Below, in pieces: positions 2,190 to 42,922 of a DNA stretch of 49,284 nucleotides. Within the stretch, counting starts at the first letter, position 1. Every line of letters begins with the position of its first letter. The notes under the pieces were generated by a model. It did not search any database, was not told the DNA's origin, and worked only from the letters and a program-made list of their open reading frames with translations. A program made the translations under genes and the position numbers. Origin of the DNA: a virus. Where the stretch lies: IMG/VR virus record IMGVR_UViG_3300035701_000054, positions 1-49,284 of that record; one strand, 5' to 3'.

Positions 2190-2762
2190 ATGGCTAATTC
2201 AAAAAAGAAAGGGAATAGAGGCGAGCTAGAGCTCGTCCATTTGTTATGTGAAAAATTCGGAGAGGGACGATTTAAAAGGACTCCCAGCTCTGGCGCTCAT
2301 ACTGGCGGCAAAAATCAAGAAGCTGCTAAAAATCTACCCTGGGAGGCTAAGATTACTTTAGTAAGCGATCTAATTACTCCTTCAGATTTTAACTTTGTGA
2401 TTGAACACAAATTTTATGCAGATGCTAATTTTTGGGATTTATTTTCTGAAAAATCAAATTGGAACCAATGGATAAATCAAGTCGAATCTGATGCTAACTT
2501 CGTTGATAAAACGCCACTTTTGGTTATCAAATACAATAGACACCAGAGGATAGCTTTAATAGATTATATATATTTAACAAGTTATGCGGTTTCCATGTAT
2601 AGTGGAGACGAAGTTACAGAAGCAGAAGTAGATGAAGATCTTGTTGAAAAGATCAAAAACATGGCTCAAAGATTTATATGGAAAGGTTATTCTATTGTTG
2701 AATTTGACGATCTATTAAATCTACCTAAAGATTTCTGGTTTGATAGGAGTAACAATGCCTAG
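2190..2762 (+). CDS. PD-(D/E)XK nuclease, Holliday-junction-resolvase-like
   Basis: The 190-residue protein begins KKKGNRGELELVHLLCEKFG and continues with RTPSSGAHTGG and VIEHKFY. A Glu after GNRG, an acidic residue and the EHK triad are the layout of small archaeal-type resolvases and related phage restriction-fold nucleases. Its place beside terminase and portal suggests that it resolves branched DNA before packaging, the job of endonuclease VII in T4; that role is inferred. The start has an upstream AAAGGGG. Its last codons overlap the portal start by 8 nt. Confidence 0.65.
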   Translation: MANSKKKGNRGELELVHLLCEKFGEGRFKRTPSSGAHTGGKNQEAAKNLPWEAKITLVSDLITPSDFNFVIEHKFYADANFWDLFSEKSNWNQWINQVESDANFVDKTPLLVIKYNRHQRIALIDYIYLTSYAVSMYSGDEVTEAEVDEDLVEKIKNMAQRFIWKGYSIVEFDDLLNLPKDFWFDRSNNA

Positions 2763-5700
2763 TCGCACAAAAGAAATAGAAAAACGTTCTGAAACTATAC
2801 AACAGTATTTTAACAAAATTAATATTACTAGAATCAGAGATCTTACGACTCCCGTCGATAAAAGACCAGATGATTCATCTTTTGCATTTAGTGCTTACAG
2901 AACTTCCATTGAAAACTTAACGGTTATAGATCAAGGTAGGTTACAGAGATATAGAGAATATGAGCAAATGTGTTATGTACCCGAATTGAATGGTGGTTTA
3001 GAGCTCTACGCTGATGACGCTTCATTATATAATGAAGATGACGAAGTAGTAGAGACAGAATCAGAAAATCAAGAGATATCTGATAATTTATACGACATGT
3101 GGTTTAAATCATTAGATATGAACTCTATTCTATGGCACATCGTTTTCAATACTTGTAAGTACGGTGATGCTTTTTATGAAGTAATTCCCGACAATTATAC
3201 TAACCCTAAAAAGATTAAGTATATTCGTTTTATACCGCCACAATTTGTGGTTAGAAGAGAAAAAGACGGAAACTTGTTAGAGTTTGTAGTAAAGATTACT
3301 CCTGACTCTAGAACACCGACTTCTGCTACTTATTATAGTTCAGCGGAAGCTTCTGAATTTATACTCAAACCTTGGCAGATGGTACATTTTAAATTAGACG
3401 ATAAAGAATTTGATCCCTATGGTAAATCAATTCTGGAACCTGGAAGATTAACATTTAAGCAAATGAAGTTGATTGAAGATGCTATGTTAATTTACAGAAT
3501 TAGTAGAGCACCAGAAAGAAGAGTTTTTGGTATTCCAGTTGGTAATTTACCATATAGAGAAGCAATGAAAAGAGTCGAAGATATTAAAACTAGATATAGA
3601 AAAACTCCATGGATTGACCCAACATGTTTATCATTAGAAACAGAGATACCACTACTTAACGACGAAACAAAAACTCTGGAGCAATTAATAAAAGATTTCG
3701 ACTCTGATAAAGAAAATTGGGTTTATTCTGTTGATAGAGAAAATGAAAATCAAATTGTTCCTGGTAAAATTATTTGGGCTGGCGTCACAAGAAAAAATAC
3801 TCAAGTAATAAAAATAACACTTGATGATGGTCAGTCATTTAAGTTTACTCCAGATCATAAATTTATTTTAAGAAATGGGGAATATTGCGAAGCAAAGAAT
3901 CTTAAAGTCGGAGATTCTTTAATGCCGCTTTATACTAAAGAAACTAAAAGAGGCTATAGAACAGTTTATAATCCTAAGAATGAAAAATATTATCCCAGAT
4001 ACATGATGTCAGCAAGATTTACAAATAACGAATGGGATTCAAATTGGATAAAAAGAACTACGCACCATATTGATTTTAACAAGAAGAATGATTATCCAGA
4101 TAATCTTAGTCTTAATATTAGCTATAACGAGTGGAAGGAAAGTCTTACCAAATATGAATACGACAAAATAATTGAAGGTATTACTTTCACACAAATTGAA
4201 AACTTAATGGGAAATCAAATTTTAGCGAGATGCAAAGTTGCACAACAATTAAATTGTAATCCTGGAGTAGTTCTTGATAGAGTAAAAAAACATGGTTATT
4301 CTTCTTGGAAAGACTATTGCTTAACAAAAAATCATAAAGTTGCTTTAATTGAATTTTTAGAAGAAAAGATTGACACTGGAACTTTAACAATTGATAAATA
4401 CCATAACTTCGCAGTAGGAAAACAAAGTAGTGGTATTCTTGTTAAGAATTCTGGTGAGATAAACTATAACGCTAATCCATTGTGCTTAACACTTGATACT
4501 AAAATAGATTTACTAGATGGTAGGTCTGAGCCACTATCTACTTTAATAGAAGAATATAAAGCTGGTAAAGAAAATTGGGTTTATTCTATTGATACTACTA
4601 GAGATAATAAAGTAGTACCTGGTAAAATAGAATGGGCTGGAATAACTCGAAAGAATGCAAAATTAGTAGAAGTATTTGTAGACAATGGAAAATCCATTAA
4701 ATGTACTCCCGACCATAAATTTATGCTTAGAGACGGTAACTATAAAGAAGCAAAAGATTTATTAGTCGGTGAAAGCCTTATGCCTAAATATACTAAAACA
4801 TCTAAAAAAGGATATGAATTAATATTCAATCCAAGTACTAGAAAATATGTACCAACTTATATGATGGTGGTTAGAGAGACTCAATCAGGTCTTTGGAATA
4901 AAAAGTATTCTAAAAAACATATCCATCATAACGATTTAAGAAAGATCAACAATTCACCAAATAATTTGAAAATATTAGAATCAGTTGAACATTTAAGATT
5001 ACATGCTATACACAACAAAGAAAACTGGCAAAGTAATGAATATAGATCAAAACAAATAGCTTCTAGAAAAAAAGCTTGGATAAATGCTTCAGATGGTAGA
5101 AGACAGCTTCAATCAGAAATTATGACCGAGTATAATAAAAGCGGGACTCATAAGAAAAGTGTAATAGCTAGAAACAATAAATTCTGGGCTGATGTAGAAA
5201 ACAGAAAAAAAACTTCTTCTAAAATGCGAAAACCAAAATCTACAACGGAAAAAATGCATATAAAATTTGATGATAAATTTTGGGCTTATGTAGATTCGGC
5301 TATTAAGGTATACAATTTACAAGATAAGATGGTCGAATCTTTAAACTCAAATCAAGAATTTATAAATCATTTTACTTCTATTACGCCAAGGTCGAATAAG
5401 AAAATCCATCGACATCTTTTAACTAAAGCTTATAGATCAAAGGGATTTGATACTTTCGCAGAGTATTCTTCTTTTGTAAAAAATAGCGAGAACCATAAAG
5501 TTGTATCAGTTGTGTATTTAGACTATAAAGAAGACACTGGCTGTATAACAGTAACCGAATGGCACAACTTTATGACAAATGGAATAACCGTGAGAAATTC
5601 GATAAATGATGATTTTTTCTTACCTCGTCGACCAGATGGATCTGGTATTACAATTGAATATTTACCAGGTGGTCAACAATTAGGTGAAATAGATGACGTT

Positions 5701-6591
5701 AGATATTTTAAAGAAAAAATTCTTCGAACGATGAGAATTCCTATGGCTTATTTGACGGGAGAACTGACAGGTGATGTGGCCAGAACTTCTTTGTCTGCTA
5801 TGGACGTAAGATTTGCCAAAACAATAGAAAGAATACAAAAACAGATTATAAAAGGACTAGAAAAGTTATCAATTATCGAGTTAGCTTTTAAAAGATTCTC
5901 AATTCAAGATATGCATGATTTTAGAATCTTATTAACTCCTCCATCTAAAATTTACGAAATACAAGAACTAGAAACATTGGCAAACAAATTTAATGTAATC
6001 CAGACAGCTCTACAAATGGCTGATGATAAGGGAAACTTATATTTGCCCAGAGAATGGTTATACAAAAAGATTAGTAAATTCAACGATCAAGAAATTTCTA
6101 ACATTAAACTAATGCAACAAAGGGAACAGGCTGAGAAAGCTGAAGTTGAAGGTACAGAAGCTGAAGCTGGCGGATTGGGTGCAGGTGCAGGTGCAGGTGG
6201 ATTAGGAGCTCCGGGCGCTGAAGCTGGTATCGCTGGGCCTGAGGCCGGTATGGCTGCTGGTCCCGAAGTAGCTGGTCCCGAAGCTGTGGCTGCTACTCCT
6301 CCAGAAGAAGCACCTGCAGCAACTGGTGGTGGGGCTGCTTTAACTGCTGCTCAAATTATAAAAGTAGCTGGCCAAGAGTTCTTGGTTGAAAACGAAGAAG
6401 ACATAAAAGACCTTATAAAATTCGTGAAGCAATACAGAGAAAATGAAAAGATAACTAAAGATAAACCTATCCTGAAGACTGGGAGAAAAATGTACGAAAA
6501 CAACTTCGAAAATTTATTCCTACATGGTGAGCTCAAAGGGCTTATCAGACGACGAAATAACAATAACAAAAGGGAAATGTTAAAAGATTAG
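2755..6591 (+). CDS. gp20: Portal protein (gp20-like) precursor containing two inteins
   Basis: The 1278-residue precursor should mature by protein splicing to a 631-residue portal, the dodecameric ring at the head vertex through which DNA enters and leaves. Exteins are residues 1-290, 566-576 and 949-1278. Joined, they give WIDPT-SGEINYNANPL-SINDDFFLPRR, followed by EYLPGGQQLGEIDDVRYF, the conserved gp20 core. The C-terminal extein carries an Ala/Gly/Pro/Glu-rich low-complexity stretch (nt about 6130-6350) and a basic tail. I place the start at ATG 2755 because AGGAG lies at 2745-2749; an upstream in-frame TTG at 2740 is less likely. No stop codon or frameshift occurs in the whole reading frame, so both inteins must splice for a working portal. 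Confidence 0.93.
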   Translation: MPSRTKEIEKRSETIQQYFNKINITRIRDLTTPVDKRPDDSSFAFSAYRTSIENLTVIDQGRLQRYREYEQMCYVPELNGGLELYADDASLYNEDDEVVETESENQEISDNLYDMWFKSLDMNSILWHIVFNTCKYGDAFYEVIPDNYTNPKKIKYIRFIPPQFVVRREKDGNLLEFVVKITPDSRTPTSATYYSSAEASEFILKPWQMVHFKLDDKEFDPYGKSILEPGRLTFKQMKLIEDAMLIYRISRAPERRVFGIPVGNLPYREAMKRVEDIKTRYRKTPWIDPTCLSLETEIPLLNDETKTLEQLIKDFDSDKENWVYSVDRENENQIVPGKIIWAGVTRKNTQVIKITLDDGQSFKFTPDHKFILRNGEYCEAKNLKVGDSLMPLYTKETKRGYRTVYNPKNEKYYPRYMMSARFTNNEWDSNWIKRTTHHIDFNKKNDYPDNLSLNISYNEWKESLTKYEYDKIIEGITFTQIENLMGNQILARCKVAQQLNCNPGVVLDRVKKHGYSSWKDYCLTKNHKVALIEFLEEKIDTGTLTIDKYHNFAVGKQSSGILVKNSGEINYNANPLCLTLDTKIDLLDGRSEPLSTLIEEYKAGKENWVYSIDTTRDNKVVPGKIEWAGITRKNAKLVEVFVDNGKSIKCTPDHKFMLRDGNYKEAKDLLVGESLMPKYTKTSKKGYELIFNPSTRKYVPTYMMVVRETQSGLWNKKYSKKHIHHNDLRKINNSPNNLKILESVEHLRLHAIHNKENWQSNEYRSKQIASRKKAWINASDGRRQLQSEIMTEYNKSGTHKKSVIARNNKFWADVENRKKTSSKMRKPKSTTEKMHIKFDDKFWAYVDSAIKVYNLQDKMVESLNSNQEFINHFTSITPRSNKKIHRHLLTKAYRSKGFDTFAEYSSFVKNSENHKVVSVVYLDYKEDTGCITVTEWHNFMTNGITVRNSINDDFFLPRRPDGSGITIEYLPGGQQLGEIDDVRYFKEKILRTMRIPMAYLTGELTGDVARTSLSAMDVRFAKTIERIQKQIIKGLEKLSIIELAFKRFSIQDMHDFRILLTPPSKIYEIQELETLANKFNVIQTALQMADDKGNLYLPREWLYKKISKFNDQEISNIKLMQQREQAEKAEVEGTEAEAGGLGAGAGAGGLGAPGAEAGIAGPEAGMAAGPEVAGPEAVAATPPEEAPAATGGGAALTAAQIIKVAGQEFLVENEEDIKDLIKFVKQYRENEKITKDKPILKTGRKMYENNFENLFLHGELKGLIRRRNNNNKREMLKD
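3625..4449 (+). other. Intein 1 of the portal (275 aa), degenerate endonuclease region
   Basis: The element starts with Cys (CLSLETEI) and ends VKN before a Ser +1 residue. Block B TPDHKF and block F YHNF are present, giving a complete HINT splicing fold. The usual penultimate His is Lys here. The middle contains HHIDFNKKNDYPDNLSL (His pair at nt 4063-4068), an HNH-like start that lacks the expected final His, so nuclease activity is probably lost. Its N-terminal 125 residues are clearly related to those of intein 2. Confidence 0.92.
4483..5598 (+). other. Intein 2 of the portal (372 aa) with HNH homing endonuclease
   Basis: The element starts with Cys (CLTLDTKI) and ends VRN before a Ser +1 residue. 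It has block B TPDHKF and block F WHNF. The insert carries HIHHNDLRKINNSPNNLKI followed by EHLRLH (His pair at nt 4924-4929), a full HNH endonuclease motif, then basic helical sequence that probably binds DNA. As in intein 1, the penultimate His is replaced, here by Arg. It sits 33 nt after intein 1. Confidence 0.92.
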
Positions 6592-35368: not shown

Positions 35369-36445
35369 ATGGCAAGAAAAAGAATGATTTTAGGAGCCGG
35401 TCAGTGTGGTATGAAATTGGCCTATGAATATTATATTAAATTTTCTAACTCGAATGAGTTAGTAGCGCTAAGTACAAGTACAGAAGATTCAGTGAACATT
35501 CCAAAATCAAGTCTAATACAAATTGCAACTGAGGGAAGCGGTAAAAAATTTACCAATGGAACTGCTATTTGGCAATCTGCGCGAGAACGACTTCAAAGAG
35601 AATTTGAAGATGTTCAGCAAACAGATATCATTTATTTCGTTTCAGCAGGAGGCGGCAGTGGAAGTAGCTCAGTCCGACATGTTGCTGATATAGTTCTTAG
35701 CGATAACAAATTTAATAGGATATTTCTTGTCATGACTCTTCCGTTTGAATACGAAAAGCTTCCATTTAAGCCTAATGCTTTAAGAGCTATCAGTACTTTA
35801 CAAGAAGATGGATATCTTGAGAAGATGAGCATTCTTCTTTTTGACAACGAAAAATTGTCTAAGCAATATTTCAATATAGAAAGGATCGACCGAGAAACAA
35901 CTATAAATACAACTGATCTCAATAAAATTAATAATCATATTGTAAATTCAACTAGTTTAGTACTCGATATGATCAACACTTATCATGATCCTCGCAAGTT
36001 TTCACCTTTTACGATTGATGAAATTGAGCATGAATCTGTTATATTTTCTTATGGATTTATTGGAGTAGACTCTAGAATTTATGACGGAGCTGGGGCTGAG
36101 GTCAAATTTGATTATGGTAAAATATCAGATGCAAAAAACGTTATCATCGCTAAAGCCGTTAACTTAAGAGAGTCAGATAATGCAATCAAATCTACTTCGG
36201 GAATTTTCTTAGAGAAGGTCAAGATCATATCTAAAAAAGCTAAAAATGCTAGAATCATGTATGGTATTATTCGAACGGATCGCATTCAGAATGGAACTTT
36301 TATTATAATTGCCAACAATCTCGATGTTGGAAAATATGTTAATAAAATAAAGAACAAAGTAGGAAGCAACGTAGACGCTTTCTTGACAAAAGATAGCAGA
36401 GAAAAAGTTTTAACTAATAGAGAAAAGAGTTTATTCGACATATGA
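35369..36445 (+). CDS. Tubulin/FtsZ-like GTPase (phage cytoskeletal protein)
   Basis: The 358-residue protein has the tubulin/FtsZ nucleotide fold: an N-terminal beta-strand with GAGQCG (9-14), LSTST near 34-38, a T3-like region TEGSGKKFTNG, and the signature SAGGGSGSSS (92-101), equivalent to GGGTGSG of tubulin and FtsZ. A T7-loop-like INTTDLNKI (179-187) follows; its second catalytic acidic residue is not obvious. Phage tubulins (PhuZ, TubZ-type) form filaments that position phage DNA or nuclei. The close relatives are unknown to me. GGGG lies upstream of ATG 35369. Confidence 0.8.
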   Translation: MARKRMILGAGQCGMKLAYEYYIKFSNSNELVALSTSTEDSVNIPKSSLIQIATEGSGKKFTNGTAIWQSARERLQREFEDVQQTDIIYFVSAGGGSGSSSVRHVADIVLSDNKFNRIFLVMTLPFEYEKLPFKPNALRAISTLQEDGYLEKMSILLFDNEKLSKQYFNIERIDRETTINTTDLNKINNHIVNSTSLVLDMINTYHDPRKFSPFTIDEIEHESVIFSYGFIGVDSRIYDGAGAEVKFDYGKISDAKNVIIAKAVNLRESDNAIKSTSGIFLEKVKIISKKAKNARIMYGIIRTDRIQNGTFIIIANNLDVGKYVNKIKNKVGSNVDAFLTKDSREKVLTNREKSLFDI

Positions 36446-38044: not shown

Positions 38045-38716
38045 ATGGAAAAAGAAAAAACATTAGATCTCGGAAAACTTGAATATCTTATTTTAAATTA
38101 TTCGATAAAAGACAGATCTTTTTGGCTTAAAATATTTGAGCCAATTGAACCTAAATTTTTTGAAAATATAGAAAATCAAAATATATTCAGGTTCTTCAAA
38201 AAATATTTCGCAAAGTATAATCAAATCCCCGATGTTCAAATTACAATAAATGAATTAAGAAATGTAGATACTGAGATCATATCTCAAATTTATGGAGATT
38301 CACCAAAAGAAACTAAAGATTATATTTACGATAAAACCCTGAAGTTTATTAAGTCTAGTTTAATCAGAAATGCACTGATTGAATCAATTGATCTTTTGGA
38401 AAAGAATGAGTTTGAAGAGATTGAAGTTAAAATAAAAAATGCCGTAAAGTTCAATCTAGACGTTTCATTAGGTTTAAAATTAGCAGATGTTGATGAGAGA
38501 TATGAGAAAATTAAAAATTTAGAGACAGAAAGAATACCTACAGGATTTCCACAATTTGACGTAATACTTAATGGAGGATGGGGACGCAAAGAACTTTATG
38601 CCTGTGCGGCACCTCCAGGAATAGGAAAATGTCATACTTATGAATCAGAAATTGAAATAGAAATCGAAGAAGAAGATAAAATTTATGATAAGATAAAGAT
38701 ATATCTCAAATCCTGA
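38045..38716 (+). CDS. gp41: DnaB-type helicase (gp41), N-terminal half fused to intein N-fragment
   Basis: Residues 1-195 are the N-terminal part of the replicative helicase, ending at the Walker A sequence APPGIGK. Residue 196 is the Cys that opens an intein N-fragment of 28 residues beginning CHTYESEIEIEIEEEDKIYD, then stop (TGA 38714-38716). The Ser needed to complete GKS is the +1 residue of the C-terminal half at nt 40087. The product must join the second half by trans-splicing to make a working ATPase. Spliced length would be 420 residues. Confidence 0.9.
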   Translation: MEKEKTLDLGKLEYLILNYSIKDRSFWLKIFEPIEPKFFENIENQNIFRFFKKYFAKYNQIPDVQITINELRNVDTEIISQIYGDSPKETKDYIYDKTLKFIKSSLIRNALIESIDLLEKNEFEEIEVKIKNAVKFNLDVSLGLKLADVDERYEKIKNLETERIPTGFPQFDVILNGGWGRKELYACAAPPGIGKCHTYESEIEIEIEEEDKIYDKIKIYLKS

Positions 38717-38741
38717 CAGCGCAGCGCAAGTTAATATAACT

Positions 38742-39716
38742 ATGGCATATAAAGAAAGAGAATCTATCTGTAAAATTTGCGGTAACAAATTCAAGAGCAG
38801 ACAACTAAATCCAGCCACTTGTTCTAAATCTTGCAAAATGAAATTCATAAGCAAACAATTAAAATCTGAGAAGAAAACTATTGGGGAATGCGAACAGTGT
38901 CATAAAGAGTTTGAATATGTCCCAACTTCTCGCCACTCAATTTATAGATTCTGTTCACAAGATTGTCGTTACACCCATAGAGCTCAATATATAAAAGAGC
39001 ACGGTAATTCAGAAGAAGCTAAAAAGAAAATATCTGAGAGCTTATCTGGTAGATCGTTAGTTGATCGAGGTTTTAGCAAAGAAGCGATTGAATCCTCCGT
39101 AGCTGCTTTAAAAATTGCTGGTAAAGAATGGAATGACTCAATAAGAAATAAAACTTATGAAGAAATTCATGGCGAAGAAAAAGCAAGAGAGATAAAGCGA
39201 AAATTCTCAGAAGATAGAATTGGAGATAAAAACTCATTTTATGATCACCATCACTCAATAGAAACTAAAGAAAAAATAGTAAAAAACAGAAACGGAAAAC
39301 TTTACATTTTTGCTAATGGTATATTTGATGATGTAAAATGGCAAGGAAGTTATGAACTTCAGTTATTAACTTATTGCTATGATAACGGTATTCGAATCAA
39401 GCGGTTTGACAAGAAGCCAATAGAATATGTTTATCAAAACAAAACCAGACACTACTTTCCAGATTTTATTATTTTAGAAAATAAGAAAGAGATCATAGTA
39501 GAGTGTAAAGGATATAGCAACGAACAAAACTTAGTAAAAATAAAAAGTGCTTCAAAAAAATATAAAAAGAAATTTAAAGTATATAAAAGAAAAGATTTTC
39601 CTTTAAATCAAGTACCGGACAAAGACATAAATGCATGGTACAAAGTTATGCAACAAAAATATGGTGACATACTTGTAATCAAATATAATCCTCACGAGGC
39701 AAAAATTGAGAATTAG
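38742..39716 (+). CDS. Homing endonuclease within the split helicase locus
   Basis: The 324-residue protein has two Cys clusters (C10-C13/C27-C31 and C50-C53/C71-C75) that look like zinc fingers, then a Ser/Lys/Arg linker with SEEAKKKISESLSGRS, a NUMOD3-like element. The C-terminal nuclease domain has GSYELQLL (Glu 205), HYFPDF (Asp 241) and VECKGY (Glu 254, Lys 256), a PD-(D/E)XK/Vsr-like layout. Such nucleases sit between split-intein halves in environmental phage genes. It overlaps the downstream half by 11 nt. Confidence 0.8.
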   Translation: MAYKERESICKICGNKFKSRQLNPATCSKSCKMKFISKQLKSEKKTIGECEQCHKEFEYVPTSRHSIYRFCSQDCRYTHRAQYIKEHGNSEEAKKKISESLSGRSLVDRGFSKEAIESSVAALKIAGKEWNDSIRNKTYEEIHGEEKAREIKRKFSEDRIGDKNSFYDHHHSIETKEKIVKNRNGKLYIFANGIFDDVKWQGSYELQLLTYCYDNGIRIKRFDKKPIEYVYQNKTRHYFPDFIILENKKEIIVECKGYSNEQNLVKIKSASKKYKKKFKVYKRKDFPLNQVPDKDINAWYKVMQQKYGDILVIKYNPHEAKIEN

Positions 39717-40764
39717 AGCTAAAATTAAAATTGGTGACTTAGTAGAAGCATTGGGCTGTAATAGTCCCGAACAAGAAATCAACATTTCTAATTCTACATT
39801 AAGAGTTAACACCCCTAAAGGATATCAAAAAATATTAGGGGTCAGAAAAACTAAAGAGTTACCTATAGTTAGATTAGAAACAGAAAGAAATATTTTAAGG
39901 TGTGCTACTGAACATAGAGTAGAAACATCTCTTGGATTTCAATTTGTAACAGAAGCAAAAGACGTTTTTACTAAAAATGGATTTCAAGTGTGCAAAATAA
40001 TAACAGAAAATATAAAAGAAAATTGTTATGATGTTCAAATTGAAAACACGCACTCATACTGGGCTAATGAGATCCATAGTCACAACTCGATCTTTTTAGC
40101 GAACTGGGCCGTGGCAACTATTAAACAAGGATTTAATGCGTTAGTCTATACTCTAGAAATTTCTGAAGAACGCTTGAGCATGAGACATGACGCGATACTC
40201 ACAAAGATCCACGTTGATGAGCTAATTTATGATATAGATAAAATCAAAGAAAAATATAAGAACTTCGCTAAAATAAGCAAAGCCAATCTTTGGGTCAAAG
40301 AGTTTCCAACTAAGTTAGCTTCGATCAACACTCTCAGAAGCCACTTTGAACAACTTTACACTTATGAAGATTTTCGACCTGATGTTATTTTCGTTGACTA
40401 TGCAGCCTTATTAAAACCCTCGTTTCGGGTAGATTCATATGAAGATTTAAAAGCAATCTACGAAGAACTTCGAGGATGGGCAGTTGAGCTAGATATTCCG
40501 ATTGTGACAGCTGCTCAAACAAATAGAACATCTCTCGATCCGAAGGGTGGCACTAAAGAAATTATTACCCAAGCTCAAGTTGCTGATTCACTTGGCATTG
40601 CGCAAACAGTCGATCTTTTTATGACGATAACTCAATCAAGAACTGAAAAAGAACAAGGTACTATCAACCTCTATATAGACAAGCACAGACACGGTGAATC
40701 TTCAAAAACTATTAAATACTATATAGACTACAAGAACTTTATATTAGATGAAATAGCGATTTAA
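39706..40764 (+). CDS. gp41: Intein C-fragment fused to DnaB-type helicase (gp41) C-terminal half
   Basis: The first 127 residues are the intein C-part: KIKIGDLVEAL, CATEHRVETS (block B), YDVQIENTHSYWANEIHSHN (blocks F and G, penultimate His present). The Ser +1 (nt 40087) then begins SIFLANWAVATIKQGFNALV, the helicase core, with VIFVDYAALLK (Walker B), TAAQTNRTS and YIDKHRHGESS (arginine-finger region). The start is TTG 39706, with GAGG 6 nt upstream inside the endonuclease gene. Confidence 0.9.
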   Translation: MRIRAKIKIGDLVEALGCNSPEQEINISNSTLRVNTPKGYQKILGVRKTKELPIVRLETERNILRCATEHRVETSLGFQFVTEAKDVFTKNGFQVCKIITENIKENCYDVQIENTHSYWANEIHSHNSIFLANWAVATIKQGFNALVYTLEISEERLSMRHDAILTKIHVDELIYDIDKIKEKYKNFAKISKANLWVKEFPTKLASINTLRSHFEQLYTYEDFRPDVIFVDYAALLKPSFRVDSYEDLKAIYEELRGWAVELDIPIVTAAQTNRTSLDPKGGTKEIITQAQVADSLGIAQTVDLFMTITQSRTEKEQGTINLYIDKHRHGESSKTIKYYIDYKNFILDEIAI

Positions 40765-41481: not shown

Positions 41482-41711
41482 TGTCTTACAATAAAAGTAT
41501 GACAATTACAGCTCGCTATCGACAAGAGGCATTTTCAGTAGAGCATAATAAACGACACTATACAGCTCTTCGGTTTGAAAATTTACAAGACGGTGGCATA
41601 TCCTACAGCATAAAAGACGACGGAAAAATTTTTGCAAATGTAAATCCAAATACTACTACTTTCAAAATCATCGCAAACGCTATAGAATATAGGAAGAGCC
41701 CAAAGTCATGA
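41481..41711 (+). CDS. Small unknown protein upstream of PARP
   Basis: The 76-residue basic beta-rich protein overlaps both neighbours by 1-4 nt, so it is translationally linked to the PARP gene. No motif is recognised. Confidence 0.6.
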   Translation: MSYNKSMTITARYRQEAFSVEHNKRHYTALRFENLQDGGISYSIKDDGKIFANVNPNTTTFKIIANAIEYRKSPKS

Positions 41712-42922
41712 ACTACGGTTCTAAAAAGTTGATAATGGTTACCGGTGATAACAACAACAAGTTCTATAACATGAAAGACAACAACGACGGGACTTTCACA
41801 AGCGAGTGGGGTCGCATTGGTGCAACAAAAGACTCGACTACGTATCCCATAAAGAAGTGGAACTCTATTTACCGCAACAAAACTGGCAAAGGTTACAAAG
41901 ACATCACAGAGATTTTCGCCGAGAAGATCGACGACAATGTGAACTTCGCTGATATTAAGGACAGTCAGATCTCTCGGTTAGTTTCTGCTTTACAATCTTA
42001 CGCGAAGAAATCAGTCACAGAGAATTATACAGTCACTTCTGAGTCAGTCACTCAAAAGCAAGTCGATGAAGCTCAGATTATTCTCGATAAGTTGACTGTC
42101 CTCAAGGCTATAGATGTATCGCCTCTCAACGAAACTCTCATTGAACTTTACACTATTATTCCTCGTAGAATGAGTAATGTGAAGCATCATCTTTTTGGTA
42201 ACGACATTGGTTTGGTACTCTCAAAAGAAAATCTTGAAAGAGTGATTGCTAACGAACAAGCAACTCTCGACGTCATGAGTGGTCAGGTTTCTACTAACAC
42301 TAAAACAAAAGACGTCAACGATAAAGAACACAAAACACTTCTTGATGTTATGGGCTTGGCTGTCGAAGCAATAAACGATCAAGATCATCAGACGATTCTT
42401 AAACTTCTCGGTCCCAATGCTCGGCAATTCAAATCTGCTTATAGAGTCATCAACCTGAAGACACAAGATACATACGATAAGTGGCTTGACAAAGTTACAA
42501 ACAAATCTGCTTATCTTTTCTGGCATGGTTCTCGCAATGAGAACTGGTGGTCTATTCTTGACTCTGGACTTCTAATCCGCCCTTCGAACGCAGTTTTCTC
42601 GGGAGCTATGTTTGGTCACGGAGTTTACTTTGCCGATAAAGCTCAGAAGTCAATAGGATACACTTCTCTTCGTGGAAGTTATTGGGCTGCAGGCTCTTCG
42701 AATCGAGCATATTTGGCTGTATTCAATGTTCATACGGGAAACTGGTTGAAGAGCCAACGACATGAAACTTGGATGTACGATTTAAATGAAAGTAAGTTAA
42801 AGAATCGAGGTAATTACGATTCGCTCTTTGCACTCGGTGGCTATGACCTTCGAAACAATGAATACATCGTCTACAACAAAAACCAATGCACAATTCAATA
42901 TCTCGTTGAGATAGGAGACTAA
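41708..42922 (+). CDS. Poly(ADP-ribose) polymerase with WGR, regulatory and catalytic domains
   Basis: The 404-residue protein has an N-terminal WGR domain (EWGRIGATKDSTTYPIKKW, residues 33-51), a helical PARP regulatory domain (about 80-235) and a catalytic ART domain. The H-Y-E triad is intact: WHGSRNENWW (His 273), GHGVYFADKAQKS (Tyr 307) and NEYIVYN (Glu 385). This is the full architecture of eukaryotic DNA-dependent PARPs, distinct from the T4 Alt/Mod enzymes. It uses NAD to modify proteins or DNA. The start overlaps the previous stop. Confidence 0.9.
   Translation: MNYGSKKLIMVTGDNNNKFYNMKDNNDGTFTSEWGRIGATKDSTTYPIKKWNSIYRNKTGKGYKDITEIFAEKIDDNVNFADIKDSQISRLVSALQSYAKKSVTENYTVTSESVTQKQVDEAQIILDKLTVLKAIDVSPLNETLIELYTIIPRRMSNVKHHLFGNDIGLVLSKENLERVIANEQATLDVMSGQVSTNTKTKDVNDKEHKTLLDVMGLAVEAINDQDHQTILKLLGPNARQFKSAYRVINLKTQDTYDKWLDKVTNKSAYLFWHGSRNENWWSILDSGLLIRPSNAVFSGAMFGHGVYFADKAQKSIGYTSLRGSYWAAGSSNRAYLAVFNVHTGNWLKSQRHETWMYDLNESKLKNRGNYDSLFALGGYDLRNNEYIVYNKNQCTIQYLVEIGD

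Follow-up and report, generated by a model that had tools for sequence, protein, structure and literature searches.

The gene at positions 2755-6591 of the window (the whole stretch of DNA analysed here, 49,284 nucleotides, positions 1 to 49,284 of IMG/VR virus record IMGVR_UViG_3300035701_000054) encodes a portal vertex protein of the T4 gp20 type and is broken by two class 1 inteins, i1 and i2. Only 11 residues of extein lie between the two, and they are very probably of separate origin. The gene is a single open frame of 1278 codons with an ATG at 2755 and a stop that ends at 6591; once both inteins are taken out, a portal of ~631 aa is left. Its parts are as follows.

2755..6591, + strand: portal vertex protein precursor (T4 gp20 type), 1278 aa; Portal_T4 profile (Pfam PF07230) E=2.3e-68, phrog_213 against the outer parts E=2.4e-70
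2755..3624, + strand: N-extein, end ...YRKTPWIDPT; gapless junction alignment to intein-free L054, L056-L059, L063 and L064
3625..4449, + strand: intein 1 (i1), site a, class 1, 275 aa, HNH degenerate; Intein_splicing profile (Pfam PF14890) E=3.3e-13
4063..4140, + strand: HNH remnant of i1; intein alignment, weak phrog_7545 match E=0.0018
4450..4482, + strand: spacer extein SGEINYNANPL, 11 aa; contiguous in intein-free relatives
4483..5598, + strand: intein 2 (i2), site b, class 1, 372 aa, HNH region; PF14890 E=2.5e-18
4924..5004, + strand: intact HNH motif of i2, HHNDLRKINNSPNNLKILESVEHLRLH; phrog_7545 HNH endonuclease E=1.4e-11, 30-intein alignment
5599..6588, + strand: C-extein, start SINDDFFLPRR...; matches T4 gp20 from residue 330 (solved structures)

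The two profiles place the host protein among the T4 gp20 portals, and it also matches solved structures of T4 gp20. The preliminary description, made from the sequence alone, had given the same coordinates, intein lengths and spacer, all of which stand, and its placement of both inteins inside the conserved gp20 core is supported by the sequence motifs and profile matches, by the empty alleles and by the predicted folds. The empty alleles are seven IMG/VR portals (the intein-free relatives named above) that were retrieved by the C-extein sequence and compared with the in silico spliced window protein; they lack both inserts, are gapless at both junctions and conserve the spacer region, and the nearest of them, L054, is 91% identical.

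Both inteins carry the anatomy attributed to them at the outset: Cys at residue 1 (the class 1 nucleophile), a block B TPDH at residues 75-78, a block F HNF, and a final Asn followed by Ser, i1 ending in LVKN and i2 in TVRN. C1, the block B H78 and the last Asn are invariant among 27 aligned inteins. A penultimate His, usual though not defining, is replaced by Lys in i1 and Arg in i2; in the intein alignment, the near relatives at both sites likewise have Lys in that position. The AlphaFold models (mean pLDDT 85.3 for i1 and 86.7 for i2) both have inteins as their top PDB matches and adopt the HINT fold when compared with intein structures (E about 1e-6). Chance is excluded as the source of these features, and both inteins look able to splice, as far as sequence and predicted fold can tell. 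The preliminary description had further held that two ordered splicing events are required. This part is not supported: both splicing domains are complete, nothing in the anatomy forces an order, and either order is possible because the spacer can serve both as the C-extein of i1 and as the N-extein of i2.

That i1 and i2 are related was clear from the start, but the likeness extends beyond the first 125 residues originally proposed, with 49% identity over the first 164 and 34% identity over roughly the final 56 (E=5e-58). At the DNA level identity is 57% over aligned codons. The closest kin of each lies elsewhere: i1 is 64% identical to the site-a intein of L053, and i2 is 86% identical to the site-b intein of L002. 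A tree of both inteins had been proposed in the preliminary description, and in the splicing-domain tree each falls with separate same-site kin, i1 pairing with the L053 site-a intein (100/98) and i2 grouping with the site-b inteins of L002 and L003. Constraining i1 and i2 to be sisters is rejected by the AU test (p=3.5e-7), also when L053 and L002 are included (p=0.00125). The same-site kinship and the rejection of the constraint indicate that the window gene acquired its inteins from two lineages that are related but distinct, one per site.

The alternative is a local tandem duplication in which one intein was copied to the adjoining site within this gene. The kinship of i1 and i2 over 164 residues fits such an event, and a comparable within-gene move seems real. 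Mini-inteins of 140-144 residues without an HNH region occupy T4 site 83 in L004, L008 and L065. They nest within the site-b inteins (support 100/97, six rows); this suggests, on moderate evidence, that a site-b intein moved to site 83 of its own portal gene and lost its endonuclease. For this nesting the AU test gave p=0.023 for a site-b-only group including L061 and no rejection (p=0.15) for a narrower group of the window, L002 and L003, both groups having been named only once the tree had been seen. For i1 and i2 themselves duplication is very unlikely: their DNA has little in common, each is closer to own-site inteins elsewhere than to the other, and tree and AU test together speak against local duplication of one intein.

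Separate acquisition at the two sites thus remains our reading, and the endonuclease regions bear on how it may have come about. In the alignment of 30 portal inteins i2 displays the full HNH pattern HH...N...EH..H; i1 retains HH and N, and its final EH..H is replaced. The site-a intein of L053 lacks an HNH region. In the comparison of the window with L002, dS is 0.62 for i2 as against 1.44-1.68 for the exteins, and this lower synonymous divergence than that of the host gene is consistent with homing. At a dN/dS of 0.126 for i2 and 0.16 for its endonuclease region, i2 keeps its HNH region under purifying selection. Occupancy was surveyed by an IMG/VR pattern scan for the spacer region, which yielded 17 informative alleles besides the window, some of them near-duplicates of one another: site a is filled in 1/17, site b in 5/17, neither in 11/17 and both in 0/17. 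For i2, this sporadic occurrence and the reduced dS point to horizontal spread. The 30 nt just 3' of site b are 97% identical to the i2-bearing L002 and 70% identical to the empty L054, despite the L054 portal being closer overall to that of the window than L002; this flank is possibly a short co-conversion tract, short enough that it could be chance.

We propose that i1 and i2 are homing elements that invaded two adjoining sites in the part of the gene coding for the clip domain. After translation each would excise autocatalytically and independently, in any order, with ligation of ...DPT to SGE... and of ...NPL to SIND... yielding an ordinary portal subunit of ~631 residues. The HNH of i2 probably still cleaves site b of co-infecting phages that lack the intein, and repair after the cut would copy i2 plus some flanking DNA. 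With its endonuclease decayed, i1 probably no longer homes by itself and most likely persists via splicing alone or via carriage with the homing of i2, 33 bp away. Such co-homing of i1 with i2, judged from the distance and the HNH decay only, is possible, with slightly less to be said for it than against it. Counter to it, the L053 site-a intein persists without an endonuclease and without i2; in experiments on adjoining haloarchaeal MCM inteins, close double homing was found to be inefficient, and co-homing had no support from phylogeny (PMC10643990). The same study raises the question of how frequently an intein lacking an endonuclease homes with a neighbour's help (PMC10643990), and the window, where an intein with an apparently live HNH and one with a dead HNH lie 33 bp apart, offers a natural test case.

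The position of the inserts is of functional interest. Alignment with T4 gp20 places sites a and b before residues 318 and 329, respectively, and both fall in the gp20 clip domain (residues 279-358), the docking place of the packaging ATPase gp17 (PMC4493910). A subunit left unspliced there would therefore probably give no working portal. Many hotspot inteins, described below, sit at this docking region of the DNA-packaging motor, and splicing could conceivably gate portal assembly.

A total of 62 inteins, spread over about 28 sites in 38 portal genes, emerged from intein scans and in silico splicing. At least two inteins are present in 19/38 genes, with a maximum of four in L020. Close neighbour pairs, with spacers of 6-21 residues, occur in nine genes including the window (in residues: L096 6, L022 10, window 11, L083 11, L020 15, L016 18, L118 18, L087 19 and L010 21). 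Random draws from the pooled observed sites give 4.3 such genes on average as against nine (P about 0.01), a rough P, since all 38 genes came from intein queries and some are related to one another; for the same reason none of these counts is a population frequency. The preliminary description had called the tandem unusual, which holds relative to the literature found; within the retrieved portals it recurs in eight others. No report of tandem inteins in gp20 was found in the open-access literature, a scope that leaves subscription journals and InBase outside. T4-type portal genes of uncultured phages thus apparently represent an undescribed intein hotspot. More broadly, one may picture a dense hotspot in which inteins gather adjacently, some move to another site and lose their endonuclease, and dead ones such as i1 survive by co-homing; this is a tentative picture that we would sooner doubt than accept. 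The recurrent spacers of 6-21 residues provide a measure of how short an inter-intein extein can be, as well as candidate parts for linking multiple protein segments.

Further variety was seen among these genes. L084, L091 and L103 each have one portal intein that starts with Pro and has a block F Cys (DVYC, DVFC), features that resemble class 3, the other intein of each gene starting with Cys. In the L115 portal the first intein is LAGLIDADG-like (GFLDADGW) and the second HNH-like, giving two endonuclease families in one gene. In the L096 record (182,840 bases) the intein splicing profile matches at least ten times, and the portal gene holds three inteins, two of them only six residues apart.

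The recurrence of short spacers also bears on whether the tandem could be an assembly chimera, formed when alleles filled at site a and at site b were fused across the 33-bp spacer. Within the IMG/VR census of the clade, the window alone has both sites filled, which speaks for an artefact. Against it, a bridge of 33 bp is below usual assembly word lengths, and other contigs (L022, L083) independently have pairs with spacers of 10-11 residues; a chimera is accordingly highly improbable. We consider it just as improbable that cross-splicing sometimes pairs the N-half of i1 and the C-half of i2, so that all the intervening sequence is excised, the 11-residue spacer included, and a second portal form arises. 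Their splicing domains are related and very near each other, but they differ at about half of their residues, each intein is predicted by AlphaFold to fold completely alone, and conservation of the spacer in relatives suggests that the mature portal needs it. Retention of the inserts as non-splicing domains of the mature portal, to which the penultimate residues other than His might point, is extremely unlikely, above all in view of the empty alleles: no homologous portal was found that keeps the segments as mature domains, close relatives simply and gaplessly lacking them, occupancy is sporadic, C1, H78 and the final Asn are invariant in the 27 aligned inteins, and an insert at the ATPase-docking clip domain (PMC4493910) would be expected to block assembly. 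The preferred reading is therefore that of two inteins, each acquired at its own site.

The portal of mycobacteriophage cluster C1 belongs to a different portal family from T4 gp20. Its PORT inteins likewise lie within a phage portal protein; in the part of the source available, six PORT inteins are listed and a tandem pair is not described (PMC5050341). Another known precedent is that of the haloarchaeal MCM (CDC21) inteins a-d, at sites 335, 362, 401 and 415, the nearest being 14 residues apart (PMC3972481). As in the portals, several close inteins, up to four, share one essential ring-forming protein (PMC3972481); MCM is, in contrast, an archaeal helicase and its inteins carry LAGLIDADG endonucleases (PMC10643990), whereas the window has a phage structural protein, HNH and an 11-residue spacer. 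The pair hence represents a known kind of arrangement, but with unusually short spacing. Campylobacter phage IBB_35 also has phage genes with inteins, one with an intein plus an intron, but according to the part of the report available these are phoH, nrdA and terminase genes and not the portal (PMC3322345). Class 1 inteins of other phage genes have splicing motifs in common with i1 and i2, with a best isolate-phage identity of about 26-36%. Among 13 isolate-phage intein matches none is annotated as a portal, three being without annotation, and the search for isolate-phage portals holding close relatives of i1 or i2 found none; near kin were found only in uncultured IMG/VR contigs.

Other genes of the window and of a related phage also attracted attention. 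At 38045-40764 of the window a DnaB-like (gp41) helicase gene is split at its Walker A motif, between PPGIGK and CHTYES. The break begins with about 28 residues that form a short N-intein-like end, encloses a separate endonuclease-like ORF (38742-39716), for which a search returned no relatives, and continues with a C-intein-like start that ends in SHN before SIFLANW; it is a probable atypically split intein. In L075, the record of the related phage L002, a gp46-like gene (1242-2589) is similarly broken at Walker A, between GSGK and CVYRGTK, and a different endonuclease-like ORF follows the break; the gp46 of the window is unbroken. A free-standing endonuclease VII/HNH-like ORF (1156-1728) separates the portal gene of the window from a fragment of the terminase large subunit (168-1154). 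Finally, on this T4-type phage contig, positions 41708-42922 encode a possible ADP-ribosyltransferase with WGR and PARP catalytic domains, and positions 35369-36445 a GTPase of the Tubulin/FtsZ family (E=5.6e-11).
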